Assembly: GCF_024666595.1 (NCBI RefSeq)
Contig: NZ_CP088296.1
Location: 3,865,033 to 3,929,032, forward strand
Length of the DNA: 64,000 bases
From: Sphingomonas sp. J315
GTDB lineage: Bacteria > Pseudomonadota > Alphaproteobacteria > Sphingomonadales > Sphingomonadaceae
Reading direction: 5' to 3'
Within the stretch, counting starts at the first letter, position 1. Each line of letters starts with the position of its first letter. The position numbers and the translations under genes are program-made. The notes beneath the pieces were generated by a model, which saw nothing but the letters and a program-made list of their open reading frames with translations, did not search any database and was not told the DNA's origin. This document shows positions 1,340 to 43,961 of the stretch, piece after piece.

Positions 1340-1357
1340 TTTCTGTAATTACAGAAA
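1340..1357. promoter_or_regulatory. Perfect 18-bp palindrome, likely operator of the adjacent regulator
   Basis: TTTCTGTAATTACAGAAA is a perfect inverted repeat lying between the divergent VOC and MarR/GbsR-type genes. The same arms, TTTCTG and CAGAAA with a 6-base spacer, recur at 1951-1968 in front of the desaturase gene and nowhere else that I noticed. A dimeric winged-helix regulator would bind such a site. Autoregulation plus control of the desaturase gene is the simplest reading. Confidence 0.7.
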
Positions 1358-1364
1358 TTACATC

Positions 1365-1913: not shown

Positions 1914-1950
1914 CCACCCACTCCATCCGGCGACAACGCATATCCATCAG

Positions 1951-1968
1951 TTTCTGATCTTACAGAAA
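1951..1968. promoter_or_regulatory. Second operator-like repeat upstream of the desaturase gene
   Basis: TTTCTGATCTTACAGAAA has the same 6-base arms and the same 6-base spacing as the perfect palindrome at 1340-1357. It ends 21 bases before the desaturase start, over the expected promoter or leader, so binding there would probably repress. Confidence 0.65.
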
Positions 1969-1989
1969 TAACAGCAAGGGAGAAGCGAC

Positions 1990-3856: not shown

Positions 3857-3862
3857 CCCATA

Positions 3863-3880
3863 CCCTTTCCTACAAGCCCC
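3863..3880. repeat. 18-base motif, copy 1 of 2
   Basis: CCCTTTCCTACAAGCCCC occurs here and again exactly at 43032-43049. Here its complement supplies the ribosome-binding stretch of the YhhN-type gene. The function is unknown and two copies are too few to define a repeat family. Confidence 0.5.
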
Positions 3881-3999
3881 GCCTTGGCGTAAGGGCATCG
3901 ACAGAGGCGTCCGGCACCACCGGACATGTGTCAAGCGCGCGCATGACAACCCTCCATTTTTGTAAGTTTCCCCACCACCGGGTGTCAGGCTCGAATTCT

Positions 4000-5352
4000 A
4001 TGAATGCCCATTTAGTCCATATCATCGGCGGCGGCCTCGCCGGGTCGGAAGCGGCGTGGCAGCTCGCCCAAGCCGGTATCCGCGTGAAGCTGTCCGAAAT
4101 GCGAGGGTCTGGCGACATGACCCCGGCGCACCAGACCGATGGCCTTGCCGAACTCGTCTGCTCGAACAGCTTCCGCTCCGACGATGCCGAGCGCAATGCG
4201 GTGGGGCTGCTGCATCAGGAGATGCGCGACCTCGGCTCCCTGATCATCGCCAAGGGCGACGAGCACAAGGTTCCCGCCGGTTCGGCGCTGGCGGTTGACC
4301 GCGACCTGTTCTCGCAAGGTGTGACCGCCGCGCTCGAAGCCCACCCCAACATCACCATCGTCCGCGAACGCATCGACCAGCTTCCCGTCGAGGGGCTGAC
4401 GATCGTCGCCACCGGCCCGCTCACCGCCCCCGGCCTCGCCGACAGCATCGGCGCCGCCACCGGCAGCGACGCGCTCGCATTCTTCGACGCCATCGCCCCG
4501 ATCGTCCATTTCGAGAGCATCGACATGGACAAGGCGTGGTTCCAGTCGCGCTGGGACAAGGTGGGGCCCGGCGGCAATGGCAAGGATTACATCAACTGCC
4601 CGATGACCAAGGACCAGTATCTGGCCTTTCATCAGGGCCTGCTCGACGGCGAAAAGACGCAGTTCAAGGACTGGGAGAACGTCCCCTATTTCGAAGGCTG
4701 CATGCCGATCGAGGTGATGGCGGAGCGCGGTGTCGACACCTTGCGCTACGGCCCGATGAAGGGCGTCGGGCTCGACGATCCGCGGACCGCGTGTGACGAA
4801 TTTCCCAACGGCCGCTGGCCCTATGCCGTCGTCCAGCTACGGCAGGACAATGCCACCGGCACGCTGTGGAACATGGTCGGCTTCCAGACCAAGCTCAAAT
4901 ATGCCGAGCAGGTGCGCCTGTTCCGCACCATCCCCGGCCTCGAAAATGCCGAGTTCGCCCGGCTCGGCGGCCTCCACCGCAACACCTTCATCCGCTCGCC
5001 CGAGCTGCTCGACGCGACCCTGCGGTTGAAGAGCCGCCCGCATATCCGCTTTGCCGGGCAGGTGACGGGGTGCGAGGGCTATGTCGAAAGCAGCGCCATC
5101 GGCCTGCTTGCGGGCCGCTTCGCCGCGGCGGAAATCCTCGGCCGTAACCTGACGCCACCCCCGGTCGAAACCGCGCTCGGCGCGCTGCTCGGCCACATTA
5201 CGGGCGCGGCAGAGGTCGAAACCTATCAGCCGATGAACGTCAATTTCGGCCTGATGCCGCCGATCGAGGGGCGAACGAAAAAGGCCGACCGCAAACTCCT
5301 CTACACCGCCCGCGCCCGCGCGGCGTTCGCGGAGTGGCTGAAAGCGGCCTGA
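4000..5352 (+). CDS. trmFO: Methylenetetrahydrofolate-tRNA-(uracil-54) methyltransferase TrmFO
   Basis: TrmFO uses FAD and methylenetetrahydrofolate to methylate U54 in the T-loop of tRNA. The 450-residue length is normal. The N-terminus has the dinucleotide-binding motif [16 protein letters not shown] and the family signature [12 protein letters not shown] near residue 50. Later come [30 protein letters not shown] with the conserved Cys, and [20 protein letters not shown] near residue 350. The chosen ATG at 4000 gives the usual short leader before the FAD motif, and longer in-frame extensions are not family-like. It appears to stand alone, facing the YhhN-type gene head to head. Confidence 0.95.
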
Positions 5353-5353
5353 G

Positions 5354-5833
5354 CTACTCCTCCGCCTCGGCCAGCGCCTTGGCCACCTCGGCCCGGCAGT
5401 CGCAGCGCGGGGTGGTCTTGGGCTTGCGCTTCGGCGCGGTGGTGGCAAATTCAGCGCGGGTCAGCGTGCCGGACTTGTCCTTGTCGGCGGCGGCGAACTT
5501 GTCGCTGGTCCGCACCGACCATTCCTCGAACGACAGCCGTCCGTCGCCATTCTTGTCCAGCTTGGCAAAGGCCTTGCGCCGCGGCTGCTGCAATTCGGCC
5601 AGCGAAATCAGCCCGTTCTTGTCCTTGTCATTGCGGTCAAACCGCTTCTCCTCCCGGGTTCGGTCGGGGGCTTGCGGAACCTCGGCAACCTCCTCGACAG
5701 CCTCGCCACTCTGCGCGGCCTTGGCTGGCGGAGGCGAAGGCAGCGGTTCACGGGTCGCACTTCCCTGGAACAGAAACACCCCAGCCCCGGCCATCAACAG
5801 CGCCGCGAGGCCGCCCGCAAAATATCGCCACAT
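5354..5833 (-). CDS. Exported EF-hand calcium-binding protein
   Basis: The 159-residue protein has an N-terminal membrane segment or signal peptide (about residues 5-22), a Pro/Ala/Glu-rich linker, and then three EF-hand loops: DRNDKDKNGLIS near 67, DKNGDGRLSFEE near 92 and DKDKSGTLTRAEF near 118. The acidic residues at positions 1, 3, 5 and 12 needed for calcium are mostly present. Location in the periplasm or on the membrane is inferred from the leader. It converges on trmFO with one base between the stops. Confidence 0.8.
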   Translation of the reverse strand: MWRYFAGGLAALLMAGAGVFLFQGSATREPLPSPPPAKAAQSGEAVEEVAEVPQAPDRTREEKRFDRNDKDKNGLISLAELQQPRRKAFAKLDKNGDGRLSFEEWSVRTSDKFAAADKDKSGTLTRAEFATTAPKRKPKTTPRCDCRAEVAKALAEAEE

Positions 5834-5890
5834 GCCGACTCTCCCCTGTCGCCGCGACAGGCTAACGCCTTCAGCAGCGGCAGCAAGCCG

Positions 5891-6554
5891 TCACCGCCCG
5901 GTTATTCGGTGCCACAAGACCCGTCCCGTCCGTTGCGGCGAACCCGGCGCGACGCCCGCAAGCTCCATCCGCGCCAGATGCGCCATCGCCCCCAGCGCCC
6001 GGCCATTCCGGCTCCAAGGGGCACCGCAGGCTTCGTCCAGTGCAGCCTCCGCCATCCGGCGCGCCGCCGCTGCCTCGCCGGGATCGCTCAGCTTGCCAGC
6101 CAGATCGGCCAGCGCCCAGCCCTCGCCCCCCAGCGCCAGCGGGTCGCTCCCCCGCAGCACCCGCCACCGCTCCGGCGATCGCGAACAATGTCCGCCCCCG
6201 CGCGCCGTGCAGCGTCAGCGCCGCATCGTCCAGCTCGGCCTGGAGCAGGCTCTGCCACCCCTCGACCATCTCCGCGACCCTTGCCCCGGTGATGCCATCT
6301 CGCACCACATCGCGCGCGATGCCCTGCAACACCGGCTCGGGCGGCGGCGGCGCGGCGTCGAGCCGGGACAGCGCGTCATGCCACCATTGCACCCGGATCT
6401 GCCCCAGCATCGGCTCGCTCGTGGTGCGCAGCGTTTCGGCGAGTTTGTCATCGAGCGCCAACAGCGCTTCGAGCGCCGCCGCAGCCCCGGGGCTTGGCGC
6501 ATAGGTCATCACCAGGCGGCGCTCGGCATCGATCACCCGCCTACTCCGCGCCAC
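5891..6554 (-). CDS. Squalene/phytoene synthase family protein, frameshifted
   Basis: The N-terminal two-thirds, from 6554 to about 6165, reads as a squalene/phytoene-synthase-fold protein with the typical SEPMLGQIRVQWWHDAL segment. The match resumes in another frame from about 6160 to the stop at 5891 (VLRGSDPLALGGEGWALADLA). The break falls in the G-rich run near 6155-6170, so a single-base error is likely. The joined product is about 220 residues, shorter than true squalene synthases, and I see no pair of DxxxD motifs. It may therefore be a non-catalytic relative (NDUFAF6-like) rather than an isoprenoid synthase. Confidence 0.65.
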
Positions 6555-6645
6555 ACAGTCCTGATCGTTTCGTTAACCATGCGCCTTCAATCCCCGTTAG
6601 CCCAACTTCGCGCATAGCAGATGCAGGAACCGGGGATCCCATATC

Positions 6646-8699
6646 ATGCCGTTGCGCCCAACCACCGTGACCAGCGCTCGCGCCACGATGGCCGCGCTTG
6701 CGCGCGACAAGCGCGGCAACACGCTTGCCATCGTCGCCGCATCGCTGATTCCCTTGGCGGGAATGGTTGGTGGCGGCGTCGACTTGAGCCGCATGTACAT
6801 CGTCAAGACACGGCTGCAACATGCCTGCGACGCCGGTGCGCTTGCCGGGCGCAAGCAGATGGGCGGTGGCACATGGGCGTTCAACAACTACGCCGCGCGC
6901 GGTGCCGCCGAACGCTTCTTCGACGCGAATATCCAGGAGACGCCCTATGGCGCGTCTTCGGTGACCAAGAGCTACACCGAAAGCGCCGGCAAGGTGACCG
7001 GCGTCGCGAGCGCGACGCTGCCGATGACGCTGATGCGCGTACTGGGCAAGACGACAGAAACGCTGAGCGTCACCTGCGACGCCGAAATGCGCCTCCCCAA
7101 TACCGATGTGATGTTCGTACTCGACACGACGGGGTCGATGGCGAGCAAGGCGGTCAACACCGACAGCCAGACCAAGATGGAAGCGCTGAAGTCGGCGGTG
7201 AAGTGCTTCTACGAAACCGTCGCCCGGCTCGACACAACAGAGAATTGCGTCGGCGGTGCGCCGTCAGGCGGCACAAGCAACACGGTCCAGATCCGCTTCG
7301 GCTTCATGCCCTATGCGACCAATGTGAACGTCGGGAAGCTGCTGCCCACCGCCTATATCGCTGACAGCTGGCCCTATCAGTCGCGCGAGCCGCAGTTCAC
7401 CACGACGACCCAGACAATCTGGTCCGACGGCGCGACCACGCAGACGGGTACCGGGTGGGACCGCGACGATTCAGGTAGTTGGAACAACGCGCCATCCAGC
7501 ACCAACACCACCGCGTCGAGCACCAGCGACTGCCAGTCCAAGGTGCCCGGCAATGAGCTCACATCAAGCTGGGGGGTGAGTCGGGTCGACTCAACGAAAG
7601 TACGTCAGGCGGCAACCCGCGCACTGTCACCTGGTACACCCGCGAGAACGCGGAATGGTACGAGTATCGCTATCGGGACTATCGCTCGACGGACGGACGG
7701 TGCCGGTTCCAGCGGCGCACCGCAGACGGATATTTCCTGCGCTATTACAGCATGCCACAGACGGGCACTGAAACGACTGTCCAGACGTTCAACCGCTGGC
7801 GCTATGCGCAGATCACGCACAATATCAGCGGCCTGAAGAACGGCACCAGCTGGAACAATTCGGTCAGCCTGCCGATCGGCTATCAGGGCGCGGCGCGCAG
7901 CGTGAACTGGGACGGGTGTATCGAGGAGCGCGCGACCGTCTCACAGGCGAGCTACGCCCCGATCCCCTCGGGCGCGAAGGATCTCGACATCGACCTCGTC
8001 CCCAACTCGGGCGACGCGACCACCTTGTGGGGTCCGGCATTGCCCGGCGCGATCTTCGCACGCGACGTCACCACATCGTGGAACCAGCTCGACCGGAACG
8101 AGGCGCTGACGACGACCGACTATTACAACAATGTCCCCTATTATTGTCCGGAAGAGGCCAAGAAGCTCCAGTCCTGGCCGACCGCCTCGACCTTCGAGAG
8201 CTATGTCAACGGGCTGACTCCGAGCGGCAACACCTATCACGATATCGGTCTGCTCTGGGGCGCACGGTTCGTGTCGCCGACGGGAATCTTCCGCTCGGAG
8301 AATGAATATACTCCCCAGGGCGGTGAGATCGAACGCCACCTGATCTTCATGACCGATGGCGAAGCGTGTACCGGCGACACCGATTATGCCGCGTATGGCT
8401 TCCCCTGGCTCGACCGCCGCACGACGGATCCGTCAAGCGCGCCGACCGGCGGCTGTCTGACTACTGGAACGATCACGCAACAGGTAAACGCCCGGACTCA
8501 GGCCATCTGCACTGCGGTCAAGAACAAGAACATCACGCTGTGGGTGATCTGGTTCGGTGCGCAGAGCGCCACGATCGAAGGGATGATGCAGAGCTGCGCC
8601 ACCACCGGCCGCTACTTCGCGGCGCGCAACTCGACCGACCTGCAGAACACCTTCCGCTCGATCGCGGACCAGATTTCCCAGTTGAGACTTACGAAGTGA
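6646..8699 (+). CDS. TadG-like pilus-assembly protein with von Willebrand A domain, frameshifted
   Basis: The protein begins with a Tad-type N-terminal segment (KRGNTLAIVAASLIPLAGMVGGGVDLSR), which anchors it in the membrane with an exported C-terminal part. A von Willebrand A domain follows, with the metal-binding DTTGSM motif near residue 160 and MTDGE near the C-terminal third. The frame breaks around 7555-7576, next to a run of six G, and continues to 8699. The joined product is about 680 residues. The Ser/Thr/Asn-rich middle is an insertion inside the vWA fold. It is the first of three overlapping genes for Tad-like proteins, and its stop overlaps the GTG of the next. Confidence 0.8.
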
Positions 8700-9325
8700 A
8701 GCGGCGATTCTCCCTCCGTCGCTTCGCCCCCGGCGCGCTCAGGCGCGACGAGTCGGGTGCCACCATCGTCGAATTCGCGATGGTGGCACCCGTCCTTGGC
8801 TTTGTCCTGCTCGGCGCCTTCGACGTGGCCCACACGCTGTACACCCGCGCTGCATTGCAGGGCGTGGTGCAAAAGACCGCACGCGACTCGACGCTTGAGA
8901 GCGGGGGCGAAACGGCGACCCAGGCTTTGCTGGACGAAAAGGTGAAGGCTCAGGCCAAGGCGTTGGCGAATAACGCGACAATCACCATCACCCGCCGCTT
9001 CTACCGGACCTTCAGCGAGGCGGCCGCCGCGCGCGCGGAAACGTGGACCGACACCAACAGCAATGGCGTGTGCGACGCCGGCGAACCCTATGAGGACGCC
9101 AACCGCAACAATGTCTGGGATCGCGACGGTGGCAATGCCGGACAGGGCGGTGCGAAAGACGCAACGCTCTACACGGTTTCCGCCACCTATCCCCGGATGT
9201 TCCCCTTCTACAACCTGATCGGCGGATCGCGCACCACCACGATCACCGCATCGACGGTGCTGCGCAACCAGCCCTTTGGCGATCAGGGTAACTATGGCGC
9301 GATGCAGGTGCGCAACTGCACATGA
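8696..9325 (+). CDS. TadE-like family protein
   Basis: This 209-residue protein starts with basic residues followed by DESGATIVEFAMVAPVLGFVLLGAFDVAHTLYTR, the TadE-like signature that carries a prepilin-type membrane segment with a Glu. The rest is exported and contains a calcium-loop-like stretch, DTNSNGVCDAGEPYEDANRN, near residue 120. The GTG start at 8696 overlaps the upstream TGA and is the only start consistent with the conserved segment. TadE proteins are minor pilins that help assemble Flp pili, but no tad ATPase or secretin gene lies in this window. Confidence 0.8.
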   Translation: MKRRFSLRRFAPGALRRDESGATIVEFAMVAPVLGFVLLGAFDVAHTLYTRAALQGVVQKTARDSTLESGGETATQALLDEKVKAQAKALANNATITITRRFYRTFSEAAAARAETWTDTNSNGVCDAGEPYEDANRNNVWDRDGGNAGQGGAKDATLYTVSATYPRMFPFYNLIGGSRTTTITASTVLRNQPFGDQGNYGAMQVRNCT

Positions 9326-9969
9326 ACCGTTTCCGCTCCCTCCGCCGTCTGGGCGCCGACACGGGCGGGGTGGCGATGCTCGAATTCGCCTTCTCGCTGC
9401 CGATCCTGCTGGCGCTCAGCCTGACCGGGGCTGAGCTTACCAACTACATTATCAGCCGGATGCGGATCAGCCAGATTGCGTTGCACCTGGCCGACAACGC
9501 CGCGCGGATCGGGTCGGGCAGCCAGCTGCAAGCCAAGACGATCAATGAAGCTGATATCAATGACCTGCTGACCGGTGCCGGCCTTCAGTCGGGTGAGCTT
9601 GGTCTGTTCACCCATGGCCGCGTCATCATTTCCAGCCTTGAGCCGGACCCCGCCAACAGCGGCAAGAACCGCATCCGCTGGCAACGCTGCCGCGGCGCGA
9701 AGACCGCGCAGACTTCGGCTTACGGCAATGCCGGTGCGACCAACCTCAACGGCATGGGCAAGACCGGACGCCTCGCCACCGCGCCGACCGACGGCGTGAC
9801 AATGTATGTCGAGGTCTATTACGAATATCAGCCGCTGCTGAAGGCGTCGCTCGCGCCCAACACCAATTTTCGCGAGGAAGCGTCGATGATGGTGCGGGAC
9901 CGCCGCGACACGGTGGGCGGCACCAACGGCGTCTATCAGGTCAGCGGCGTCACGGCGTCGACTTGCTGA
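9322..9969 (+). CDS. TadE/TadG-like family protein
   Basis: The 215-residue product has the same architecture as the previous gene: a basic start, then GGVAMLEFAFSLPILLALSLTGAELTNYIISR, a Glu-containing membrane segment, and an exported domain of about 170 residues. Its ATG overlaps the previous stop (ATGA). With the vWA-containing TadG-like protein this forms a three-gene minor-pseudopilin operon. The conserved Glu in the hydrophobic stretch is the feature that supports the family call. Confidence 0.75.
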   Translation: MNRFRSLRRLGADTGGVAMLEFAFSLPILLALSLTGAELTNYIISRMRISQIALHLADNAARIGSGSQLQAKTINEADINDLLTGAGLQSGELGLFTHGRVIISSLEPDPANSGKNRIRWQRCRGAKTAQTSAYGNAGATNLNGMGKTGRLATAPTDGVTMYVEVYYEYQPLLKASLAPNTNFREEASMMVRDRRDTVGGTNGVYQVSGVTASTC

Positions 9970-10009: not shown

Positions 10010-11416
10010 TCACCGATATGTAACCTTCTTCACCCCGGCCACCACCTTGTCGGCCGTGATCAGCGCGAGCTTCTCAAGGTTCGCGGCATAGGGCAGCGGC
10101 ACGTCCTCGTTGGTCACGCGGATCACCGGTGCGTCGAGGTCGTCGAAGCCCTGCTCCATGCACACCGCGACGATTTCCGACGCGATCGAGCAGACCGGCC
10201 AGCCTTCCTCGACCACCACCATGCGGTTGGTCTTCTTCAGGCTCTTGAGCACGGTTGCGGTGTCGAGCGGGCGCAGCGTGCGCAGGTCGATCACCTCGGC
10301 ATCGATGCCCTCTTCGGCCAGCTTCTCTGCGGCCTCGAGCGCGACGCCCACGCCGATCGAATAGCTGACCAGCGTGACATCCTTGCCCTCACGCACGATG
10401 CGCGCCTTGCCGATCGGCAGCACCCAGTCGTCGAGCTTGGGCACGTCGAAGCTGCGGCCGTACATCAGCTCATTCTCGAGGAACACGACCGGGTCTTCCG
10501 ACCGGATCGCCGCCTTGAGCAGCCCCTTGGCGTCCGCCGCGTCATAGGGCGCGATCACGATCAGGCCCGGGACGCTGGCGTACCACGGGCCATAATTCTG
10601 GCTGTGCTGCGCGCCGACGCGGCTCGCCGCGCCGTTGGGACCGCGGAACACGATCGGGCAGCGCATCTGGCCGCCCGACATGTAGTTTGTCTTCGCGGCC
10701 GAGTTGATGATGTGGTCGATCGCCTGCATCGCGAAGTTGAACGTCATGAACTCGACGATCGGCTTGAGGCCACCCATCGCCGCGCCCGACCCGATGCCGG
10801 CAAAGCCATATTCGGTGATCGGCGTGTCGATCACGCGGCGCGGACCGAATTCGTCGAGCAGACCCTGGGTCACCTTGTAGGCGCCCTGATATTCCGCGAC
10901 TTCCTCGCCCATCACGAACACGCGATCGTCCGAGCGCATTTCCTCGGCCATCGCGTCGCGCAGCGCTTCGCGGACCGTCGTCTTGACCATCTCGGTACCC
11001 GCAGGAAGTTCGGGATCGGCGACGCTCGCCGCCTTGTCGCTCGCCAGCTGCTTGGTGCCGCTGTCGGCCTTTTTCGGGCCGCCATCCTCACCAGCTTCAG
11101 ACTCGGCAGCCTTCTGCTCCTGTGCCGGAGCCTCGGCCTTCGCAGCAACGGGCGCAGGTGCCGAAGCATCCTCGCCCTCGCCCGCGATCGTCGCGATCAC
11201 GGTGCCGACCTTCACGCCATCGGTGCCTTCGGCGACCAGAATCTGCGCAAGCGTGCCTTCATCGACCGCTTCGAATTCCATCGTCGCCTTGTCGGTTTCA
11301 ATCTCGGCGATGATATCGCCCGACTTGATCGTATCGCCTTCCTTCACCAGCCACTTGGCGAGGGTTCCCTCTTCCATCGTGGGCGAGAGCGCGGGCATTT
11401 TCAGCTCGATCGCCAT
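10010..11416 (-). CDS. pdhB: Pyruvate dehydrogenase E1 component, beta subunit, with lipoyl domain
   Basis: The 468-residue protein has an N-terminal biotinyl/lipoyl domain at about 1-78, with the lipoylation site TDKATME (Lys43). An Ala/Pro/Glu-rich mobile linker runs to about 145, followed by the E1-beta transketolase-like domain to the end ([26 protein letters not shown], then [17 protein letters not shown]). With PdhA it decarboxylates pyruvate using thiamine diphosphate and transfers the acetyl group to lipoate. The fused lipoyl domain is characteristic of alphaproteobacterial PdhB. I start at 11416 because it begins directly at the lipoyl fold. It lies one base downstream of pdhA. Confidence 0.95.
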
Positions 11417-11417
11417 T

Positions 11418-12467
11418 TCAGTACGTCTCCACCAGAACGTCGGTATACAGCTCGGCCGGATCCGGCTCCGGCGCCTGCTCGGCAAAGTCGGCCGACTCGT
11501 TCACCGCCTTGCGGATCTCGGCCTCGATCGCCTTCAGCTCGTCTTCCTTGACGCCGATCGCCTCCAGTTCCTTCTTCACGCCCTCGATCGGGTCACTCTT
11601 CTCGCGCACCGACTGGACCTCGTCGCGCGAGCGATACTTGGCCGGGTCGGACATCGAATGGCCGCGATAGCGATAGGTCTTCATCTCGAGGATGATCGGC
11701 CCCTTGCCGGCGCGGACCCATGCCAGCGCTTCCTCGGCCGCGCCACGGCACGCCAGCACGTCCATGCCGTCGACCTGGAGGCCCGGAATGCGGAAGCTCT
11801 CGCCGCGCTTGTACAGCTGGTCCTCGGACGATGCGCGGTTGACGCTGGTGCCCATGGCGTACTGGTTGTTCTCGATCACGAAGATGATCGGGAGCTTCCA
11901 CAGCTCGGCCATGTTGAAGGTCTCATAGACCTGGCCCTGGTTCGCCGCGCCGTCGCCGAAATAGGCCATCGCGACGCCACCATCCCCGCGATACTTGTGC
12001 GCAAAGGCAAGGCCCGCGCCGAGCGAAACCTGCGCGCCGACGATGCCGTGCCCGCCGTAGAACTTCTTCTCGGTCGAGAACATGTGCATCGACCCGCCCT
12101 TGCCGCGGCTGATGCCCGCGGCGCGACCGGTCAGTTCGGCCATGATCTCCTTGGGATCGATGCCATATGCGAGCATGTGGCCATGGTCGCGATAGCCGGT
12201 GATCACCGAGTCCTTGTCACCGTCCAGCGCCGACTGAAGGCCGACCGCGACCGCCTCCTGGCCGATATAGAGGTGACAAAAGCCGCCGATGAAGCCGAGG
12301 CCGTACAGCTGCCCCGCCTTTTCCTCGAAGCGGCGGATGAGCAGCATCTGGCGATAGAATTCGAGCAGCTCCTCCTTCGATGCCTCGTACCGTTTTGGTT
12401 CGTTTGGGCGCTCGCGGTTTGTCGGAGCCGGTTCGATAGTGCGGCCCTTGGCCGGGGATTTTGCCAC
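11418..12467 (-). CDS. pdhA: Pyruvate dehydrogenase E1 component, alpha subunit
   Basis: The protein of about 349 residues carries the E1-alpha features: [31 protein letters not shown] near the start, and the thiamine-diphosphate motif from GDGAANQG to the ENNQYAMGT segment. The phosphorylation-loop equivalent [20 protein letters not shown] follows near residue 280. I prefer the GTG at 12467, which has GAGG at a good distance, over the ATG at 12479, though both are possible. A longer N-terminal extension reaching 12695 is open but not family-like. Next in the operon is pdhB, one base away. Confidence 0.93.
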
Positions 12468-34897: not shown

Positions 34898-37227
34898 ATG
34901 TCCGTACCCCAGCCTTCCGCCGACGATCCCCCTATCTGCGTGGCCTCAACGCGCCGCAGCGTGAAGCGGTGCTCACCGTCGACGGCCCCGTCCTCGTCCT
35001 CGCCGGCGCCGGCACGGGCAAGACCGCCGCGCTCACCGCGCGCCTCGCCCACCTGCTCTGGACCCGCCGCGCCTATCCGTCGGAGATCCTGTCGGTCACC
35101 TTCACGAACAAGGCCGCGCGCGAGATGCGGGAGCGCGTCCGCCACCATGTCGGCGACGCGGTCGAGGGGATGCCCTGGCTCGGCACCTTTCACGCGATCG
35201 GCGCGAAGATGCTGCGCCGCCACGCCGAGCTGGTCGGGCTGCAGAGCAACTTCACCATCCTCGACACCGACGACCAGCTGCGCCTGCTCAAGCAGCTCAT
35301 CGTCGCCAACGACCTCGACGAAAAGCGCTGGCCCGCGCGCCAGCTCGGCGGCCTGATCGACGGGTGGAAGAACAAGGGCCTGACCCCCGACATGCTCGAC
35401 GCGGGCGAGTCCGAGCATTTCGCCAACGGCAAGGGCCAGTCGCTCTACCAGCAGTACCAGGACCGCCTGCGCGCGCTCAACGCCTGCGATTTCGGCGACC
35501 TGCTGCTCCACATGCTCACCATCCTGCGCACCCACCGCGACGTGCTGCAGCAATACCAACAGCGCTTCCGCTACATCATGGTGGACGAGTATCAGGACAC
35601 CAACAGCGTCCAGTATCTCTGGCTCCGCCTGCTCGCGCAGGAGCGCAAGAATATCTGCTGCGTCGGCGACGACGACCAGTCGATCTACAGCTGGCGCGGC
35701 GCGCAGGTCGAAAACATCCTGAAGTTCGAAAAGGACTTCCCCGGCGCCAAGGTCATCCGCCTCGAACAGAATTACCGCTCCACCCCCCATATCCTCGCCG
35801 CCGCCGGCGCGGTGATCGCCAACAATAGCGGCCGCCTCGGCAAGGAATTGTGGACCGAGATCGATGCGGGCGAAAAGGTCCGCGTCATCGGCGTGTGGGA
35901 CGGCCCGGAAGAAGCGCGCCGCGTCGGTGAGGACATCGAAAGCGCCCGCATCCGCACCGGCAAGAGCCTCGACGATTTCGCTATCCTCGTCCGGGCCCAG
36001 CACCAGACGCGCGAGTTCGAAGACCGCTTCATTGCCATCGGCCTGCCCTATCGCATCGTCGGCGGCTTCCGCTTCTACGAACGCGCCGAAATCCGCGACG
36101 CGCTCGCCTATCTCCGCCTCGTCCACCAGCCCGCCGACGACCTCGCCTTCGAACGCATCGTCAACGTCCCCAAGCGCGGCCTGGGCGACAAGGCGATCGC
36201 GAAGATCCACATGCTCGCCCGCGCCGAGGGCATCCCGCTCCTGACCGCCGCCGCGCGCATCCTCGACACCGACGAGCTGACGCCGCAGGCCCGCCGCGCG
36301 CTCGGCAGCTTCGTCGGCGACGTCGCCCGCTGGAGCCAGATGCTCCGCGCGCCCGTGCCCACGGAGGGTGAGGCGCTGCCCGAAACCCGCATCGGCCAGC
36401 TGCCCCACACCGAACTCGCCCAGATCATCCTCGACGAAAGCGGCTACACCGCGATGTGGCAGGCGGACCGCACCGCCGAAGCCGCCGGCCGCCTCGAAAA
36501 CCTCTCAGAACTCGTCCGCGCGATGGAGGAGTATGAAACGCTCGGCGCGTTCCTCGAACATGTCAGCCTCGTCATGGATAACGAGAATAACGCCGACGAG
36601 CCCAAGGTCACGATCATGACCATCCACGCGGCCAAGGGGCTGGAATTCGACACCGTCTTCCTCGCCGGGTGGGAGGAAGGCCTGTTCCCCAGCCAGCGCG
36701 CGCTCGACGAAGGCGGCCTCGCCAGCCTCGAGGAGGAACGCCGCCTCGCCTATGTCGCGATCACCCGCGCCCGCCGCCAGGCGACGATCCTCCACGCCGC
36801 CAACCGCCGCATCTACGGCCAATGGACCAGCTCCATCCCCAGCCGCTTCGTCGGCGAGCTACCCAAGGCGCATGTCGACGAGGAATCGACCCTATCCGGC
36901 GGCGCGAGCCTGTGGCGCGCCAACTGGAGCGAACACGCCGACCCCTTCGCTGACGTAGGCCGAGGCACCGGCCGCGGCCCCGGCTGGCAACGCGCCGCCG
37001 CCCCCAGCTCCAGCTTCACCACCGCCCCCAAACGCGTCGTCGAAAACCGCGGTAGCGCGGTGAGCCTCGGCAACAAGGGCCGCGACGACCTCTCGCTCGG
37101 CATGCGCGTTTTCCATCAGAAATTCGGCTATGGCGAAATCGTCGAGATCGAAGGCAACAAGCTGGAGATCGAGTTCGAGGCCGCCGGGCGGAAGCGGGTG
37201 ATGGATAGTTTTGTGAGTTTAGGGTGA
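34898..37227 (+). CDS. UvrD/Rep-type superfamily 1 DNA helicase, frameshifted at codon 12
   Basis: The protein of about 775 residues has the SF1A motifs in order: Q-motif LNAPQREAV, Walker A LAGAGTGKTAALTARLAHLL, motif Ia SVTFTNKAAREMRERV, motif II MVDEYQDTNSVQ, motif III CVGDDDQSIYSWRGA, motif IV VIRLEQNYRS, motif V TIMTIHAAKGLEFDTVFLAG and motif VI RRLAYVAITRARRQ. It unwinds DNA 3' to 5' in repair and replication. The start ATG at 34898 (MSVPQPSADDPP) and the body are in different frames, with the break in the C run 34926-34930, so a missing base is likely. The C-terminus (FGYGEIVEIEGNKLEIEFE) is the usual PcrA/UvrD tail. Confidence 0.92.
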
Positions 37228-37228
37228 A

Positions 37229-38029
37229 CTATGCCCGAAGAACAGTATCTTGTCCGACCAGATTTATCCGCCCTGCCTTACCCTGATCCCGATAAATTCT
37301 ACCAATTTTGGCGACATCCGTAGATTCGATAAGCCCCTTCTCTCGAAGACTGCGCAATAAGGCTTCAACTCTTTTTTTAGGAAATGTGCCAGTCACATTG
37401 GATAGCCGTTCAAGCAGAAAGAAGCGCTGTGCAATATCCAGCGGCTTGCTCAGTTCATGTTGAGGAAAAAAATGCCTGATCGCAGCCGGAAGGCCAATAA
37501 CACCTCGCTCATATCTCACAGAACAGAGATACAAATCTAGAATTGCGGACTTTGAGAACATCCTGTTGACCCAAGGCGCAATTATCCATTCAACTATTTT
37601 ACGCGATATAGGCCGCTCTATCGACTTGAGAAAATTAGATCGTACAAGTTGATGATGAATTGTCGATGCACCACTCCGAGTCCCATAACGCACTCTGCGA
37701 TATAGAGCAGCAGCAGCAGCTTTGATACTGTTTCCATTATGCTCAAAGTGCCTCTTATCCTCGATGAAAACTAGCATCGCATGGTATTTTGTTAAATCGA
37801 TTCCCAACCGACCCGCTTCGAAAACGGACAATCTCATGCGATACAGCACATGGCCAATTCGCTCCTTCAGACGAGAGCCAACCAGCCACGCTACCTTTCT
37901 ACCAAGATAAAGCCGAGTATTCTCGTAATCTTCGCGGAGCGACCATCGATACAATGTGAGCAACAGCACTAATGTGAAGCTAGCCAACGCCGCCGCGACC
38001 TTCGTTTCTGAAACAAGCACCTGCCCCCC
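37229..38029 (-). pseudogene. Fragment 3 (C-terminal) of an IS-disrupted membrane protein with a divergent GT51 domain
   Basis: This part encodes residues 192-457 of a protein broken by three IS copies. It has one membrane helix (about 201-217), then a domain with the motifs of family 51 peptidoglycan glycosyltransferases. These are IEDKRHFEHNG with Glu281 as candidate catalytic base, GASTIHHQLVRSNFL near 311, and SRKIVEWIIAPW with Glu338. The pattern YERGVIGLPAAIRHFFPQHELSKPLDIAQRFFLLERL also fits. It is divergent: the usual LE and YLN positions read VN and YLC, and there is no penicillin-binding domain. Excising IS copies 1 and 2 plus one TA joins it in frame (TGG TTT CTA GGG) to the fragment at 39710-39914. 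GC content is far below that of the flanking genes. Confidence 0.8.
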
Positions 38030-38031
38030 TA

Positions 38032-38868
38032 GGGTCGGGACTCATAACCACCATGTGACGGCTGCGGCGAGGTAGATGGCGCTGAGGAAGTTGGTGGCGA
38101 GCTTGTCGTAGCGGGTGGCGATGCGGCGATAATCCTTGAGGCGGCAGAACATGCGCTCGACGGCGTTGCGGCCCTTGTAGAGCGTCTTGGAGAAGCAGCT
38201 TTTCCAGCGGCGGTTCGTCTTGAGAGGGATGTTCGGAACGGCACCCTGCCGCTCGATCAGGTCGCGGATCGCATTGCTGTCGTAAGCCTTGTCCGCGAGC
38301 ACGATGGTGCGCGGCGCGAGATCATCGAGCAACACATCGGCTGCGCGGCAGTCGGCGACCTGGCCACCGGTCAGCAGGAAGCGGAGCGGCCGACCTTCGC
38401 CGTCGGTGAGCGCGTGGAGCTTGCTGTTGCGGCCGCCCCGGCTGATCCCGATCGCCTGGACGAGCGCCCCCCTTTTCCACCGCCCGCGGAGCGGTGCGCC
38501 TTCATATGCGTGCTGTCGATCAGGACCTCGGCGGGCGGCCCGCCTGCTGCCGCGAGCGTGACGAACAGCTCCTGCCACACACCCTTTGCCGCCCAGCGCA
38601 CGAACCGGTTGTAGAGCGTCTTCCTCGGCCCGTAGCAGGCCGGCGCGTCGACCCAGCGCCCGCCCGACTTCACCACATGAATGATGCCGCTGATCACCCG
38701 CCGATCATCGACCCGCGCCACACCGCGCACCTTGTCCGGCAGCAGCGGACGCAGCCGCTCGAACTGGGCTTCACTCAACCAAAACTCGCTCAAATCCACG
38801 CTCCTGCTGGCGCAGCGCATGAATCACATCCCAGCCGCCAAGGGAATCCCGTTTATGGGTCCCGACCC
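38032..38868 (-). mobile_element. IS5 family (IS427-type) insertion sequence, copy 1
   Basis: An 837-bp element with 16-base terminal inverted repeats (GGGTCGGGACTCATAA at 38032-38047; the other end reads GGGTCGGGACCCATAA inward, one mismatch). It is flanked by TA at 38030-38031 and 38869-38870. It sits head to tail with copy 2, sharing the TA between them. It differs from copies 2 and 3 by three adjacent bases near 38224-38226, changing Ser to Leu in the transposase. Confidence 0.92.
38042..38820 (-). CDS. IS5/IS427-type transposase, copy 1 (two overlapping frames)
   Basis: Two frames make one DDE transposase. OrfA (38371-38820) has LSEAQFERLRPLLPDKVRG, the DUF4096-type N-terminus, and the first Asp in VLIDSTHMKAHR. 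OrfB (stop at 38042) has the second Asp in TIVLADKAYDSNAIRDLI and the Glu in NAVERMFCRLKDYRRIATRYDK. They are probably joined by programmed frameshifting at the A4G6 slippery run (complement of 38467-38476). The frame change is therefore natural here, not an error. Confidence 0.88.
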
Positions 38869-38870
38869 TA

Positions 38871-39707
38871 GGGTCGGGACTCATAACCACCATGTGACGG
38901 CTGCGGCGAGGTAGATGGCGCTGAGGAAGTTGGTGGCGAGCTTGTCGTAGCGGGTGGCGATGCGGCGATAATCCTTGAGGCGGCAGAACATGCGCTCGAC
39001 GGCGTTGCGGCCCTTGTAGAGCGTCTTGGAGAAGCAGCTTTTCCAGCGGCGGTTCGTCTTGGAGGGGATGTTCGGAACGGCACCCTGCCGCTCGATCAGG
39101 TCGCGGATCGCATTGCTGTCGTAAGCCTTGTCCGCGAGCACGATGGTGCGCGGCGCGAGATCATCGAGCAACACATCGGCTGCGCGGCAGTCGGCGACCT
39201 GGCCACCGGTCAGCAGGAAGCGGAGCGGCCGACCTTCGCCGTCGGTGAGCGCGTGGAGCTTGCTGTTGCGGCCGCCCCGGCTGATCCCGATCGCCTGGAC
39301 GAGCGCCCCCCTTTTCCACCGCCCGCGGAGCGGTGCGCCTTCATATGCGTGCTGTCGATCAGGACCTCGGCGGGCGGCCCGCCTGCTGCCGCGAGCGTGA
39401 CGAACAGCTCCTGCCACACACCCTTTGCCGCCCAGCGCACGAACCGGTTGTAGAGCGTCTTCCTCGGCCCGTAGCAGGCCGGCGCGTCGACCCAGCGCCC
39501 GCCCGACTTCACCACATGAATGATGCCGCTGATCACCCGCCGATCATCGACCCGCGCCACACCGCGCACCTTGTCCGGCAGCAGCGGACGCAGCCGCTCG
39601 AACTGGGCTTCACTCAACCAAAACTCGCTCAAATCCACGCTCCTGCTGGCGCAGCGCATGAATCACATCCCAGCCGCCAAGGGAATCCCGTTTATGGGTC
39701 CCGACCC
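38871..39707 (-). mobile_element. IS5 family (IS427-type) insertion sequence, copy 2
   Basis: An 837-bp copy in the same orientation as copy 1, separated from it only by the shared TA (38869-38870). The right flank TA is at 39708-39709. Its transposase frames are the same as in copy 3. The tandem pair occupies a single target site in the GT51-like gene. Confidence 0.92.
38881..39659 (-). CDS. IS5/IS427-type transposase, copy 2
   Basis: The two overlapping frames are arranged as in copy 1, with orfA at 39210-39659 and orfB ending at 38881. All three acidic residues of the DDE triad are present. It reads IPSKTNRRW where copy 1 reads IPLKTNRRW. Confidence 0.88.
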
Positions 39708-39709
39708 TA

Positions 39710-39914
39710 GAAACCAAGTTGGACTACCAGGAAACGCTACGCGAAATGCGGTGAATACCACCCCCTGCCCTGCCGCTGCCAACAACGCCACCGATAGGGT
39801 TGGAATTGCTTGTAGGGACGTCCAGCCAGGGAACATATGGATGGCAAAGGGCTCGTTCGCTCCCTCAAGTCGATCGGCTGGGAGCACTGTTTCAATGCTC
39901 CCATAATCCAATCC
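39710..39914 (-). pseudogene. Fragment 2 (middle) of the IS-disrupted GT51-like membrane protein
   Basis: These 205 bases lie between IS copies 2 and 3 and encode residues 123-191: GLDYGSIETVLPADRLEGAN, EPFAIHMFPGW and a membrane helix near 160-178. With one TA at each junction it joins in frame to fragment 1 (CGC CTG TTA GGA) and to fragment 3 (TGG TTT CTA GGG). No start or stop codon of its own is needed. Confidence 0.8.
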
Positions 39915-39916
39915 TA

Positions 39917-40753
39917 GGGTCGGGACTCATAACCACCATGTGACGGCTGCGGCGAGGTAGATGGCGCTGAGGAAGTTGGTGGCGAGCTTGTCGTAGCGGG
40001 TGGCGATGCGGCGATAATCCTTGAGGCGGCAGAACATGCGCTCGACGGCGTTGCGGCCCTTGTAGAGCGTCTTGGAGAAGCAGCTTTTCCAGCGGCGGTT
40101 CGTCTTGGAGGGGATGTTCGGAACGGCACCCTGCCGCTCGATCAGGTCGCGGATCGCATTGCTGTCGTAAGCCTTGTCCGCGAGCACGATGGTGCGCGGC
40201 GCGAGATCATCGAGCAACACATCGGCTGCGCGGCAGTCGGCGACCTGGCCACCGGTCAGCAGGAAGCGGAGCGGCCGACCTTCGCCGTCGGTGAGCGCGT
40301 GGAGCTTGCTGTTGCGGCCGCCCCGGCTGATCCCGATCGCCTGGACGAGCGCCCCCCTTTTCCACCGCCCGCGGAGCGGTGCGCCTTCATATGCGTGCTG
40401 TCGATCAGGACCTCGGCGGGCGGCCCGCCTGCTGCCGCGAGCGTGACGAACAGCTCCTGCCACACACCCTTTGCCGCCCAGCGCACGAACCGGTTGTAGA
40501 GCGTCTTCCTCGGCCCGTAGCAGGCCGGCGCGTCGACCCAGCGCCCGCCCGACTTCACCACATGAATGATGCCGCTGATCACCCGCCGATCATCGACCCG
40601 CGCCACACCGCGCACCTTGTCCGGCAGCAGCGGACGCAGCCGCTCGAACTGGGCTTCACTCAACCAAAACTCGCTCAAATCCACGCTCCTGCTGGCGCAG
40701 CGCATGAATCACATCCCAGCCGCCAAGGGAATCCCGTTTATGGGTCCCGACCC
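39917..40753 (-). mobile_element. IS5 family (IS427-type) insertion sequence, copy 3
   Basis: An 837-bp copy, same orientation, flanked by TA at 39915-39916 and 40754-40755. It lies 209 bases from copy 2, at a second target site within the same gene. Confidence 0.92.
39927..40705 (-). CDS. IS5/IS427-type transposase, copy 3
   Basis: Same two-frame organisation (orfA 40256-40705, orfB ending at 39927) and same protein sequences as copy 2, with an intact DDE triad and the A4G6 slippery run. Confidence 0.88.
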
Positions 40754-40755
40754 TA

Positions 40756-41119
40756 ACAGGCGCCTGAGCACGATTATCTTCCGTGCGGCATAGACTGCCG
40801 ACCGCTGCAAAAGCGCGAAATATCGCACCGTGATACTTGAAACGGTCAGAAGCATCAGTGAGATCACAATCTCGGCGTTGGTGCCTAACTTAGTCGCCAT
40901 GTTTTGTAGGCTGGCCAAATTTCCCGTAGATCCCACAATAGTGATCAAGGTTCCGCTGAAAAACAGCGCAAGCCCTGCCGCAGCGGTGAGGCTTCTCTGG
41001 TCGGCTTGTAGTGCCGTGGCGGCGAGTTCATATTCTTTGATCCCAACCTCAGCACGATCATTGTCGAGCTTATAGGTTGGGAAGTATTGTTGCGCGGCTT
41101 GCAAGTGCGACGGACCCAT
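40756..41119 (-). pseudogene. Fragment 1 (N-terminal) of the IS-disrupted GT51-like membrane protein
   Basis: This is the start of the broken gene: ATG at 41119, residues 1-121 before the copy 3 insertion. It begins MGPSHLQAAQQYFPTYKL, has membrane helices near 44-64 and 83-103, and ends AARKIIVLRRLL at the insertion. The reconstructed gene is 122 + 69 + 266 = 457 codons plus stop, so the element-free protein would have about four membrane helices before the GT51-like domain. GC is low. A divergent gene starts 215 bases away. Confidence 0.8.
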
Positions 41120-41334
41120 GGATGCACTGTGGCGCGCATCTATTCACGTAGCAAGGTGACACGAGCGAACGGAACAAGCGCTTGCCGTTTATCGGCACGC
41201 CATAGCCCCCTCGACAACCGATGTGGACAAACCACAAACAAACCCCTTTCCGGCGTCTATCCCCTTTGGACATGTAGGAGCAAATGTAGTAACGCACCAC
41301 CATGCCGGAAGCGAGTCGGCGTGATGGGGGAGGT

Positions 41335-42036
41335 ATGCGTCCAGCGATCATTACAGGCCTGTCGTCGGTGGCCTTCGCCATTGGCGGGTGGGTATTGCCG
41401 ATGAGATACCCGAACCTTCAACCTTGGGTGGCGGATGCTCTATTGTGGGCCGCCGCCGCCATGCTTTTTATAGCTGTTATTTTGTGGCTCTGGGGACTTC
41501 GAAAGCCGAATTCATCGCCGACGATGCCAGGGTCTTCCGGCCCCAACTCGCCGATCATAACCGGAAATGATAATACTCTCGCTATCGGCGAAGGAGCGAG
41601 GATCATGGGCGACGACAATCGCAAGGGCAACTTTGCCGGCAATAACTTTGGCACGCAAAATTATCACGAAGCGCCGCCGCAGCGAAGTGTCGGATCTACG
41701 TTCGCTCAAATGTTGGCATCTGCTCCCGCGCCCGTCCCCGTCCGAACCCGGTCATTTGGCACAGAACACGAAAAGAAGGTGCTCGAATCGTCGATTAACG
41801 CGGCGTTTCAGGAGCTAGGGTTCGAGGCTGGTTCGCAGGGTATGTTTGGAGGCGGCGAGACCTTTGTTGGCGTTCGTGTGAACCCCGCAGAGAACCAGCA
41901 ATCAATAGATTTTGCCACAGTCATCGCGAACGCGCTGTCCGCATCGGGCCTTGAAGGCGTCGACCTGAGGGCCGGCAATCCAGCATGGTCGACCCAAAGT
42001 TTCGTGCGTATTGAGATTGGAGAGAATGGTGCCTGA
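41335..42036 (+). CDS. Two-helix membrane protein of unknown function
   Basis: The 233-residue protein has two N-terminal membrane helices (about 5-22 and 33-53), then a Gly/Asn-rich stretch with repeated turns (IITGNDNTLAIGEGARIMGDDNRKGNFAGNNFG). A compact C-terminal domain of about 90 residues follows (HEKKVLESSINAAFQELGFEAGSQGMF through SFVRIEIGENGA). I do not recognise the family. GC content is lower than the genome average and it lies divergent to the broken GT51-like gene. The ATG at 41335 is preceded by GGGGGAGG with very short spacing, so the start is uncertain. The end overlaps the next small ORF by 11 bases. Confidence 0.65.
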   Translation: MRPAIITGLSSVAFAIGGWVLPMRYPNLQPWVADALLWAAAAMLFIAVILWLWGLRKPNSSPTMPGSSGPNSPIITGNDNTLAIGEGARIMGDDNRKGNFAGNNFGTQNYHEAPPQRSVGSTFAQMLASAPAPVPVRTRSFGTEHEKKVLESSINAAFQELGFEAGSQGMFGGGETFVGVRVNPAENQQSIDFATVIANALSASGLEGVDLRAGNPAWSTQSFVRIEIGENGA

Positions 42037-42205
42037 CAACCCCAACACCCGCTTCGACCGCCTCCTAGACGCGATGGCCCACGGTCACGCGCCTGTTACC
42101 GGGCGAAAGAAAACATCAGACGATCAAGCATCAGGTGAGGCGTCTGACGCATGTTCCAGCGATACTCGAACTCGCCCAGATACTTCGGAAGGTGACGACC
42201 GCTGA
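42026..42205 (+). CDS. Short ORF overlapping the transposase 3' end
   Basis: The 59-residue frame reads MVPDNPNTRFDRLLDAMAHGHAPVTGRKK and then a Ser/Asp/Thr-rich tail. Its last 36 codons overlap the 3' end of the IS1595-type transposase on the other strand, so the tail may be only the antisense of transposase coding. The first 24 residues could be the stump of a gene cut by the insertion, or a small real gene coupled to the membrane protein upstream. Function unknown. Confidence 0.35.
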   Translation: MVPDNPNTRFDRLLDAMAHGHAPVTGRKKTSDDQASGEASDACSSDTRTRPDTSEGDDR

Positions 42206-42983
42206 CGTGAATATGCGTGCCGTTGATGCCGCGCTTTAGCTGCGCCCAAAAGCCCTCGATTGCGTTCACGGTCGCGCCGGTCTTGCGGCAAACATACTGG
42301 TCAAGCGAGTGGTTCACGGTGGCGTGCTGATAGCCCATCGTGCCAACGCCGCCATAGCCCAGCCAATCGTCGGTATGGACCTTGCTGGGGCGCTTCACGG
42401 TCGCGCGGATGATCGGAAGCAGGGTGCCGCTCTTGCGGTCGGGAACAACGTGCGTGACCAGATCGCCGCCATGCTCAAGCATCCCGAACACGACCGTCTT
42501 GTTTGACGCGCCAGCATCGCGCTTGTCCTTGGCGCTCTGATAGCCACCGATGAACGTTTCATCGACTTGGACCGTGCGGCCTAGACCGCCAATCGGGGCG
42601 CTGCCGTCAACCGCGCCCATGTATTCGCGGATCATGTGGCACATGCGCCATGCCGTCTTGTAGGTCACTCCCAGCTGACGCTCGACTTCCTTCGCCGCGA
42701 CACCGTTCCGCGATGCGCAGAACTGGAACATGACGAAGAACCAGTCCCGCAGCGGGGTGCGGGTGCGGTCGAACGGCGTGCCAGCGGTCGGATAGACCTG
42801 ATAGGCGCACCACTGACACTGATACGAACGGCGAGCCTTTACGCGGGTGAACTTCGCGGGGCGGTCGCAACCGGGGCAAGCGAAGTCGGTGCCGTAGCGA
42901 ACCTGAAACAGGTGATCCAGGCACGCATCTTCGGTCGGGAAGCGGTCCTGAAACTGACGGAGCGTTGGGGCTTTGTTCGACAT
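42096..42983 (-). CDS. IS1595 family transposase
   Basis: The 295-residue protein has an N-terminal zinc ribbon (CPGCDRPAKFTRVKARRSYQCQWCAYQVYPTAGTPFDRTRTPL), then LGVTYKTAWRMCHMIREYM and the ISXO2-like DDE/DDN domain. The domain reads VQVDETFIGG, then VHTDDWLGYGG and INGTHIHVSGRHLPKYLGEFEYRWNMR. The start at 42983 (MSNKAPTLRQFQDRFP) is the family start, and the long in-frame upstream extension is not. I could not find matching terminal inverted repeats or a target duplication, so the element may be incomplete or domesticated. Confidence 0.85.
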   Translation of the reverse strand: MSNKAPTLRQFQDRFPTEDACLDHLFQVRYGTDFACPGCDRPAKFTRVKARRSYQCQWCAYQVYPTAGTPFDRTRTPLRDWFFVMFQFCASRNGVAAKEVERQLGVTYKTAWRMCHMIREYMGAVDGSAPIGGLGRTVQVDETFIGGYQSAKDKRDAGASNKTVVFGMLEHGGDLVTHVVPDRKSGTLLPIIRATVKRPSKVHTDDWLGYGGVGTMGYQHATVNHSLDQYVCRKTGATVNAIEGFWAQLKRGINGTHIHVSGRHLPKYLGEFEYRWNMRQTPHLMLDRLMFSFAR

Positions 42984-43031
42984 AGGGATTGTATGCCACA
43001 AAGCCTTACATGTCGCAAGGGGATAAGCGCC

Positions 43032-43049
43032 CCCTTTCCTACAAGCCCC
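43032..43049. repeat. 18-base motif, copy 2 of 2
   Basis: Exact second copy of the motif at 3863-3880, here between the divergent transposase and helix-turn-helix genes. No matching inverted copy exists near 42050-42110, so it is not the end of the transposon. Confidence 0.5.
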
Positions 43050-43071
43050 ATCCCAGCACATAAACTGGTGG

Positions 43072-43505
43072 ATGAACGACTCACCCACCCCGCCCGCCGC
43101 GTCTGACGAGGATGAAGCCATCCTCGCCTTCACGCCCGCCCCCAATTGTGGCCGCGCCGATGGCTGGACTGCGCGCCGACAAACCGACTTCATCCACGCC
43201 CTCGCCGTCATGGGCACCGTCACCCGCGCCTGCAAAGCGGTCGGGATGAGCCGCCAGACAGCCTACAAATTGCGCGAGCGGCCCGAGGCGGCCGACTTCG
43301 CCCGCGCGTGGGATGCGGCACTAATGATGGGCTATGACCGCATGTTCAGCATGGCGATGGACCGCGCGCTCAATGGCGTCACCCGCCGCGTTACTATCGC
43401 GGGCGTGAGATCGGCACGATCACCCGCCCCGATTTCCGCATGGCGATGGCGGCGCTCGCCGAACCTCCCAAACCGCCGCAGCGCCATCGCAAACTGACAG
43501 AATGA
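43072..43505 (+). CDS. Helix-turn-helix (small-terminase-like) protein, frameshifted
   Basis: The product reads DGWTARRQTDFIHALAVMGTVTRACKAVGMSRQTAYKLRERPEAADFARAWDAAL, a helix-turn-helix resembling small terminase subunits and common in sphingomonads. The frame breaks near 43390-43392. In the shifted frame the end is YYRGREIGTITRPDFRMAMAALAEPPKPPQRHRKLTE, stopping at 43503-43505. It may be a decaying gene or a one-base error. No phage structural genes are near, so a chromosomal regulator or domesticated phage protein is more likely than a terminase. Confidence 0.6.
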
Positions 43506-43526: not shown

Positions 43527-43961
43527 TCAGTTTCGCGACGCCGCGACGCCCCGCTCCACGCGCACCGCGCCGACCGCCCACAACGCCCACGCGATAATCA
43601 ACGGCTGCGCCAGCAACCGCGGCACATGATACCACGCCGACAGCCCCGTCCCGCTCCCGCCCAGCCACGCCAGGTCGATCATCGCGTGCTTCACATTGGC
43701 CGGCCACACGCACAGCGCATAGAGCGCCAGCGCCCAACCCGCCGCCAGCCGCCACCGCCGGGTGATCAGCGCGGCGGCACAGATCAGTTCTGCCGCGCCG
43801 GTAGTCAGCACCCACTCGCGCGCGTCCCACGGCACCCATGCCGGCACGATCCGCGCCATCGCATCGGTGAACAGGAAATGCGCCACCCCTGCCGTCGCAT
43901 AGAAGATCGCGAGCAGCCACCGCCCGATCCGCCGCCCCCGCGTCTCCGGCAGCTCCGCCAT
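43527..43961 (-). CDS. DoxX-like membrane protein
   Basis: The 144-residue protein has four hydrophobic helices and the DoxX-like opening (RRIGRWLLAIFYATAGVAHFLFTDAMARIVPAWVP), followed by TGAAELICAAALITRRWRLAAGWALALYALCVWPANVKHA. The family contains quinone- or thiosulfate-related membrane proteins, but this member has no known function. It lies three bases downstream of tpiA on the same strand. Confidence 0.75.
   Translation of the reverse strand: MAELPETRGRRIGRWLLAIFYATAGVAHFLFTDAMARIVPAWVPWDAREWVLTTGAAELICAAALITRRWRLAAGWALALYALCVWPANVKHAMIDLAWLGGSGTGLSAWYHVPRLLAQPLIIAWALWAVGAVRVERGVAASRN

Follow-up and report, generated by a model that had tools for sequence, protein, structure and literature searches.

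The stretch analysed here (the window) comprises 64,000 nucleotides of Sphingomonas sp. J315, positions 3865033-3929032 of contig NZ_CP088296.1 in a 3.93-Mb single-contig assembly (genome G000). A minus-strand gene at 37229-41119 is interrupted by three 837-bp copies of an IS5-type insertion sequence (IS) at two TA sites. Its product almost certainly belongs, on sequence comparison, to a distinct unnamed family in which an N-terminal membrane domain of four transmembrane (TM) helices precedes a C-terminal glycosyltransferase family 51 (GT51) domain, an architecture referred to below as 4TM-GT51. The explanation that we favour, tentatively and with slightly less than even confidence, is that the gene encoded a self-toxic membrane effector, probably directed against phages, which works as a single gene and targets lipid-linked wall precursors, and that it has recently been inactivated in this genome.

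One gene in three fragments

The three gene fragments (A, B and C; Table 1) were translated and searched each on its own. All three translate without an internal stop codon or frameshift, as the original prediction had stated. Against the intact homologue P0006, the E-values are 2e-45 for fragment A, 3e-25 for fragment B and 2e-100 for fragment C, which also aligns to residues 193-452 of a second homologue, P0007. A protein search with fragment C returned eight matches: two near-identical to the window, five intact proteins of 446-458 amino acids (aa) and one of 390 aa. The fragments fall on the intact homologues in the order A-B-C when all are aligned together, with no overlap and one column free at each junction. 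Residues 182-211 of P0006, between fragments B and C, are too variable for pairwise BLASTP, and P0007 is covered from residue 193. This end-to-end alignment of separate fragments is far beyond chance and confirms, at the sequence level, that a single broken gene occupies the locus. The examined homologues are single proteins spanning all three fragments and bridging both junctions; neither the occurrence of the fragments as separate genes nor different junctions, either of which had been named as evidence to the contrary, was encountered. The coordinates and the IS comparison agree with the proposed splitting of the gene by three insertions at two sites.

IS copies 2 and 3 have the same sequence, from which copy 1 departs at 3 nucleotides. 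From this near identity, the insertions in the GT51 gene look recent. Among the best 40 of 115 candidates scored, the same element was found at 19 full-length places in the assembly plus one partial. Three of the 19 fall in a repeated contig end, so that the distinct copies number at least 16. Window positions 30039-64000 recur as the first 33,952 bases of the contig, at 99.3% identity with 102 gap openings. The contig ends are an untrimmed circular overlap, with the contig-start side of poorer quality, so that the genome is ~3.895 Mb and the genes of this region occur twice in the assembly. This same overlap accounts for what was first considered a paralogous second copy, also broken, close to the start of the contig, and that reading was rejected. 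The GC content of the gene is low (0.47-0.56, versus 0.656 for the window), as originally noted.

Table 1. Features of the gene and its surroundings in window coordinates
Feature	Position	Strand	Evidence or remark
uvrD-like helicase gene, left border of acquired segment	34687..37227	+	Pfam
Fragment C: TM helix 4, linker, complete GT51 domain, stop codon	37229..38029	-	PF00912 E 1.1e-25; 57% identity to P0006 212-455
IS5-type copy 1	38032..38868	-	TA target site; DDE_Tnp_1 and DUF4096 in transposase frame
IS5-type copy 2	38871..39707	-	In tandem with copy 1, one TA common to both
Fragment B: conserved loop (RLEGANEPF..MFPGW) and TM helix 3	39710..39914	-	62% identity to P0006 124-181
IS5-type copy 3	39917..40753	-	Second TA site
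Fragment A: N-terminus, TM helices 1-2, start of conserved cytosolic-type loop	40756..41119	-	55% identity to P0006 3-122
Small membrane-anchored protein, no family	41302..42036	+	Neighbour
IS1595/ISXO2-type transposase gene, right part of acquired segment	42096..43235	-	PF12762 E 5.7e-39

A four-helix GT51 family and its predicted orientation

A profile of the N-terminal half matches 304 proteins at E <= 1e-3, and member details are drawn from the best 120 of these. Some carry the source names penicillin-binding protein 1A, transglycosylase domain-containing protein or biosynthetic peptidoglycan transglycosylase. The family alignment consists of 114 full-length or nearly full-length members (392-475 aa, shorter ones excluded), with a median pairwise identity of 0.55 in a sample of pairs. 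PF00912 (Transgly) scores 90.6 bits in fragment C against a cut-off of 27, and 95-109 bits in five intact members, where it is the only family above cut-off. No transpeptidase domain was found in these five by Pfam scan, and P0006 ends ~50 residues after GT51. The predicted combination of about four membrane helices, a GT51 domain and no transpeptidase thus holds in intact homologues of nearly the same length as the gene product (446-458 aa). PF00912 is missing from seven of the best 120 profile matches. Six (P0023, P0032, P0052, P0074, P0082 and P0121) were considered as N-terminal domains joined to other C-termini and rejected, since truncation or a frameshift seems to explain them; the seventh, P0130, has 259 aa.

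The catalytic motifs are strictly conserved. E281, D282, H288, G290, S313, Q317, Q318, R334, K335 and E338 are invariant in 114/114 members, including the two glutamates that had been put forward as catalytic candidates, E281 and E338. We take these two to be the catalytic pair corresponding to E233/E290 of Escherichia coli PBP1b. An Arg is likewise invariant (114/114) where canonical penicillin-binding proteins (PBPs) have Lys (25/27) or Arg (2/27); these controls are 27 PBPs from open reading frames (ORFs) of 29 loci of the window's bacterial family. The window copy keeps both glutamates and has His in place of one motif-II Gln that is invariant in all 114 homologues. In an alignment to solved enzymes, this His falls in the Gln136 column of the Staphylococcus aureus monofunctional glycosyltransferase (MGT). 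A study of that enzyme lists Asp101, His107 and Gly109 (motif I) and Ser132, Thr133 and Gln136 (motif II) among the motif residues, and describes the structure of an E100Q mutant (PMC6053601). Model comparison places the domain in the GT51 fold. Intact members are probably active GT51 enzymes. The earlier description of the domain as divergent is only partly right, as the GT51 motifs are fully kept across the family.

Averaged over the 114 members, four hydropathy peaks precede the GT51 domain and none as high follows it. Mean counts of Lys plus Arg before and after each helix are 1.98/1.19 for TM1, 1.21/3.95 for TM2, 1.00/0.93 for TM3 and 0.57/2.57 for TM4, the presumed outer loops being shorter (10-13 residues) in this per-flank count. 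A first charge count, which favoured the inside in 114/114, was set aside for this one, as its segments were of unequal length. Positive charge after TM4 exceeds that before it in 100/114 members and equals it in 14/114. In canonical PBPs, the charge before the helix exceeds that after it in 24/27, with one equal and two reversed. Cysteine is present in the GT51 domain of 48/114 members, versus 1/27 canonical PBPs. An even number of helices places the N- and C-termini on the same side, and the flanking charges and cysteines favour the cytosol. The balance therefore tips, with modest confidence, towards a predicted cytosolic GT51 domain, unlike known GT51 enzymes. In the model of the N-terminal domain two long helices extend beyond the membrane (23-72 and 79-121); fold comparison matched only generic helical bundles and is uninformative.

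Distribution, mobility and gene neighbours

The 4TM-GT51 gene is rare and scattered among unrelated bacteria. Matches were found in 2/398 genomes of a phylum sample that includes G000, and in 1/337 of its class (G000 only). Beyond G000, no close relative of fragment C was found in 149 genomes of the window's family, G000 among them. Around a second genome, G499, matches number 1/369 in the class sample (G499 only), 2/295 in the order sample (G499 and a distant member), 2/146 in the family sample and 3/117 in the genus sample. A species-genome scan with two short peptide patterns, which gives a lower bound, yielded six named loci: Citromicrobium, Cobetia, the metagenome-assembled genome (MAG) SM23_31, Aliidiomarina, Rhizobium sp. 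RU33A and a Nitrospirae MAG.

In five loci (L043, L044, L047, L056 and L058) the GC content of the gene is 0.35-0.49, versus 0.48-0.66 for the whole locus. L056 and L058, from the same genus, have only the gene and its short flanks in common (1453 bp, 78%), at different sites. In these two and in L083, all from one gammaproteobacterial genus, GTTAAGC lies 27 bases upstream of the gene and an attC-like sequence, recognised by what we take to be the attC motif, overlaps its stop codon. The bottom strand folds better than shuffled sequences in L083 (z -2.55) and L058 (z -2.70). An integron integrase exceeds the TIGR02249 cut-off in one of the three genomes, ~0.3 Mb away if the contig is circular. 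The three genes are likely candidates for integron cassettes; chromosomal integrons are treated as stores of defence systems in a review (PMC12409362). Judging from these comparisons, the 4TM-GT51 gene is horizontally acquired and moves as a single gene. At the DNA level, no match was found in E. coli genomes, or, for fragment C, in plasmids. Prophage and plasmid origins were considered and rejected. Viral scans were empty, at most 43% of the query was matched (from residue 193) among 20 phage records listed, and no plasmid record reached 80% coverage. A search for viral fold matches gave none at E <= 0.001. An IS3-type element interrupts the L048 copy, and in L046 the gene is truncated ~110 bases before the contig end. 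Together with the window copy, these inactivated copies fit a costly gene.

In the window the 3' end of uvrD and the stop codon of the GT51 gene are separated by 1 base. A uvrD match is present in 31 genomes (30 of them listed, G000 included), and the loci of eight relatives (L071-L078) were compared. In all eight, similarity to the window ends within ~25 bases of the uvrD stop. It resumes later in two: in L074 at a helix-turn-helix (HTH) gene matching window 43072-43497 (49% over 90 aa), and in L077 near window 43565-43939 (70%). L074 carries AriAB (PARIS, E 6.5e-159) between uvrD and the shared HTH gene, the interval that is filled in the window by the broken GT51 gene and two IS types. In L071 a ParD/ParE pair follows uvrD, and in the five other relatives unrelated sequence begins there; family scans cover L071 and L074. 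By this comparison, the 3' end of uvrD (window 37217-43497) looks like a variable, small acquisition spot in this genus. The orphan gene at 41302-42036 encodes a protein of 244 aa whose N-terminal part contains two hydrophobic stretches and whose tail is rich in GNDN; it matches neither a PADLOC model nor any Pfam family above cut-off.

In 4/10 loci, restriction-modification, PARIS-like, reverse-transcriptase or candidate defence genes lie within three ORFs of the 4TM-GT51 gene. The neighbours are a type II restriction enzyme and methyltransferase in L045, an AriA-like ATPase and an RT_II-A fragment directly upstream in L046, PDC-M24B in L048, and a type IIG enzyme with PDC-S50- and PDC-S57-like proteins around a distant member in L084. 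Defence matches account for 5 or 6 of the 56 nearest ORFs (three per side), versus 2 to 4 of 98 farther ORFs at the same loci, counted on mechanically called ORFs with 25 of 35 matching families listed and one RT-Protease_XI match not assigned to a locus. The enrichment is suggestive but not significant. No wall-synthesis or glycan-pathway family was found among the selected neighbours scanned with Pfam.

Three of the neighbourhoods contain further genes of note. The L046 ATPase (8369-9892, 507 aa, AAA_15/AriA-like) lies 108 bp upstream of the truncated GT51 member, and the two possibly form a pair. In L084, a one-strand run (67-8896) consists of a truncated type IIG restriction-methyltransferase, a helicase-like protein, a T5orf172 protein, the distant 4TM-GT51 protein, a small protein and a PDC-S50-like protein, possibly a combined defence operon. 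In L044 a gene with NYN and OST-HTH/LOTUS domains (11393-12127) starts ~25 bp after the intact Cobetia GT51 gene.

Possible function and comparison with known systems

GT51 enzymes are periplasmic wall polymerases. A family of 304 matches with kept catalytic residues, a four-helix anchor, a cytosolic charge pattern and solo travel does not fit that role. A GT51 domain on the cytosolic side would encounter lipid II that has yet to be flipped. Restraint of the enzyme until infection or another stress cue may come from the conserved loop and the long N-terminal helices. Once released, the enzyme would act at the wrong membrane face, where it would polymerise or sequester lipid II or a related undecaprenyl-linked sugar; the carrier lipid would be drained and growth would stop, as in single-gene defence of the abortive-infection type. 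A defence or self-toxic role in general falls a little short of an even chance. The specific scheme, in which an inside-out GT51 enzyme released by infection polymerises unflipped lipid II, blocks the undecaprenyl carrier cycle and leaves the infected cell dead or stalled, is more doubtful.

Several observations weigh against the effector explanation. By charge, TM2 and TM4 give a strong signal, TM1 a weak one and TM3 none, and the cysteine contrast could be a lineage bias, as the canonical controls come from one bacterial family. From model residue 203 onwards, the segment formed by TM4, the linker and the GT51 domain can be superposed on the full-length S. aureus MGT, a match that could point to the usual, periplasmic location. 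The excess of defence genes among the neighbours is not significant (Fisher p 0.10 or 0.17), and among the nearest ORFs of L043, L044, L047, L056, L058 and L083 no PADLOC match at E <= 1e-15 was located, with the one RT-Protease_XI match unassigned to a locus. No PADLOC model matches the protein itself in any of six members (E <= 0.1), or in the distant member P0136 (E <= 0.001). In 3/8 loci (L045, L046 and L048) the GC content of the gene is not low and differs little from that of the locus, and one of the three cassette-like loci, L056, lacks the attC-like folding (z +1.11). Two viral-contig scans gave no relatives by tblastn, and phage and plasmid records gave no match at 80% coverage.

The plainest rival is an accessory periplasmic monofunctional glycosyltransferase, similar to MtgA with extra N-terminal helices, acquired as a spare polymerase for the repair or tolerance of wall stress. 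The complete GT51 motifs and fold, the alignment to S. aureus MGT with the helix included, and the name biosynthetic peptidoglycan transglycosylase in some sources are all consistent with it. However, the flanking charge is opposite to that of 24/27 canonical PBPs, the GT51 domain contains cysteines, the gene is rare, patchy and mobile on its own, and wall-synthesis families are lacking among the selected neighbours that were scanned with Pfam. We consider this rival somewhat unlikely. The cytosolic topology signal would also suit a non-toxic GT51 enzyme that polymerises another undecaprenyl-linked sugar at the cytosolic face in a host glycan pathway, where the Arg that replaces the usual motif-II Lys throughout the family (114/114) suggests that substrate handling could differ. 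Such a role is improbable for a rare gene that moves alone, with no glycan-pathway family among the selected neighbours scanned.

Very improbable is a SLATT-type membrane domain, acting as a pore or a sensor, to which the GT51 module is only appended. The two long helices beyond the membrane in the N-terminal model point in this direction, but that model matches generic helical bundles only. Pfam includes SLATT models, and scans of fragments A and B, and of the intact members at E up to 5, gave no match to them. An idle enzyme would also not be expected to keep its catalytic residues invariant. Returning to the effector explanation, a true cytosolic site would reveal a novel means of poisoning lipid II metabolism and make the protein a candidate immune effector, and an inside-out enzyme would be an immune effector that attacks the wall precursor of its own cell by synthesis, not hydrolysis.

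Topical literature searches, with most subscription papers outside their reach, turned up no published description of the 4TM-GT51 architecture, in agreement with the original prediction. The main text of DefensePredictor (PMC13092281) does not mention transglycosylase, glycosyltransferase, peptidoglycan, lipid II or penicillin. The sections available of another source (PMC7159879) mention SLATT, glycosyltransferase and peptidoglycan-associating effectors and no transglycosylase. Automatic annotation hides the family under wall-synthesis names.

The family resembles integron cassette defence in the cassette-like ends of three same-genus loci, the single gene and the low GC content in L056 and L058. 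It differs in that an integrase above cut-off is present in only 1/3 genomes, far away. A likeness to PARIS lies in the AriA-like ATPase 108 bp upstream of the L046 member and in AriAB directly after uvrD in L074. In contrast to PARIS and other ATPase-effector systems, neither a Toprim nor a nuclease match is found in the GT51 protein, and the loci of other members show no ATPase partner. Class A PBPs (PBP1a/1b) have the same GT51 domain and fold, whereas the family lacks a transpeptidase, is shorter (~455 aa versus 590-770 aa in the 27 canonical PBPs) and has another membrane anchor. MtgA and SgtB are similar in their GT51 domain, catalytic motifs, lack of a transpeptidase and a helix directly before the domain. 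However, the family has four helices instead of one and a conserved N-terminal domain of ~220 residues, is mobile and rare, and has a charge pattern that predicts the opposite side of the membrane from the single-helix, N-in, periplasmic arrangement of MtgA.

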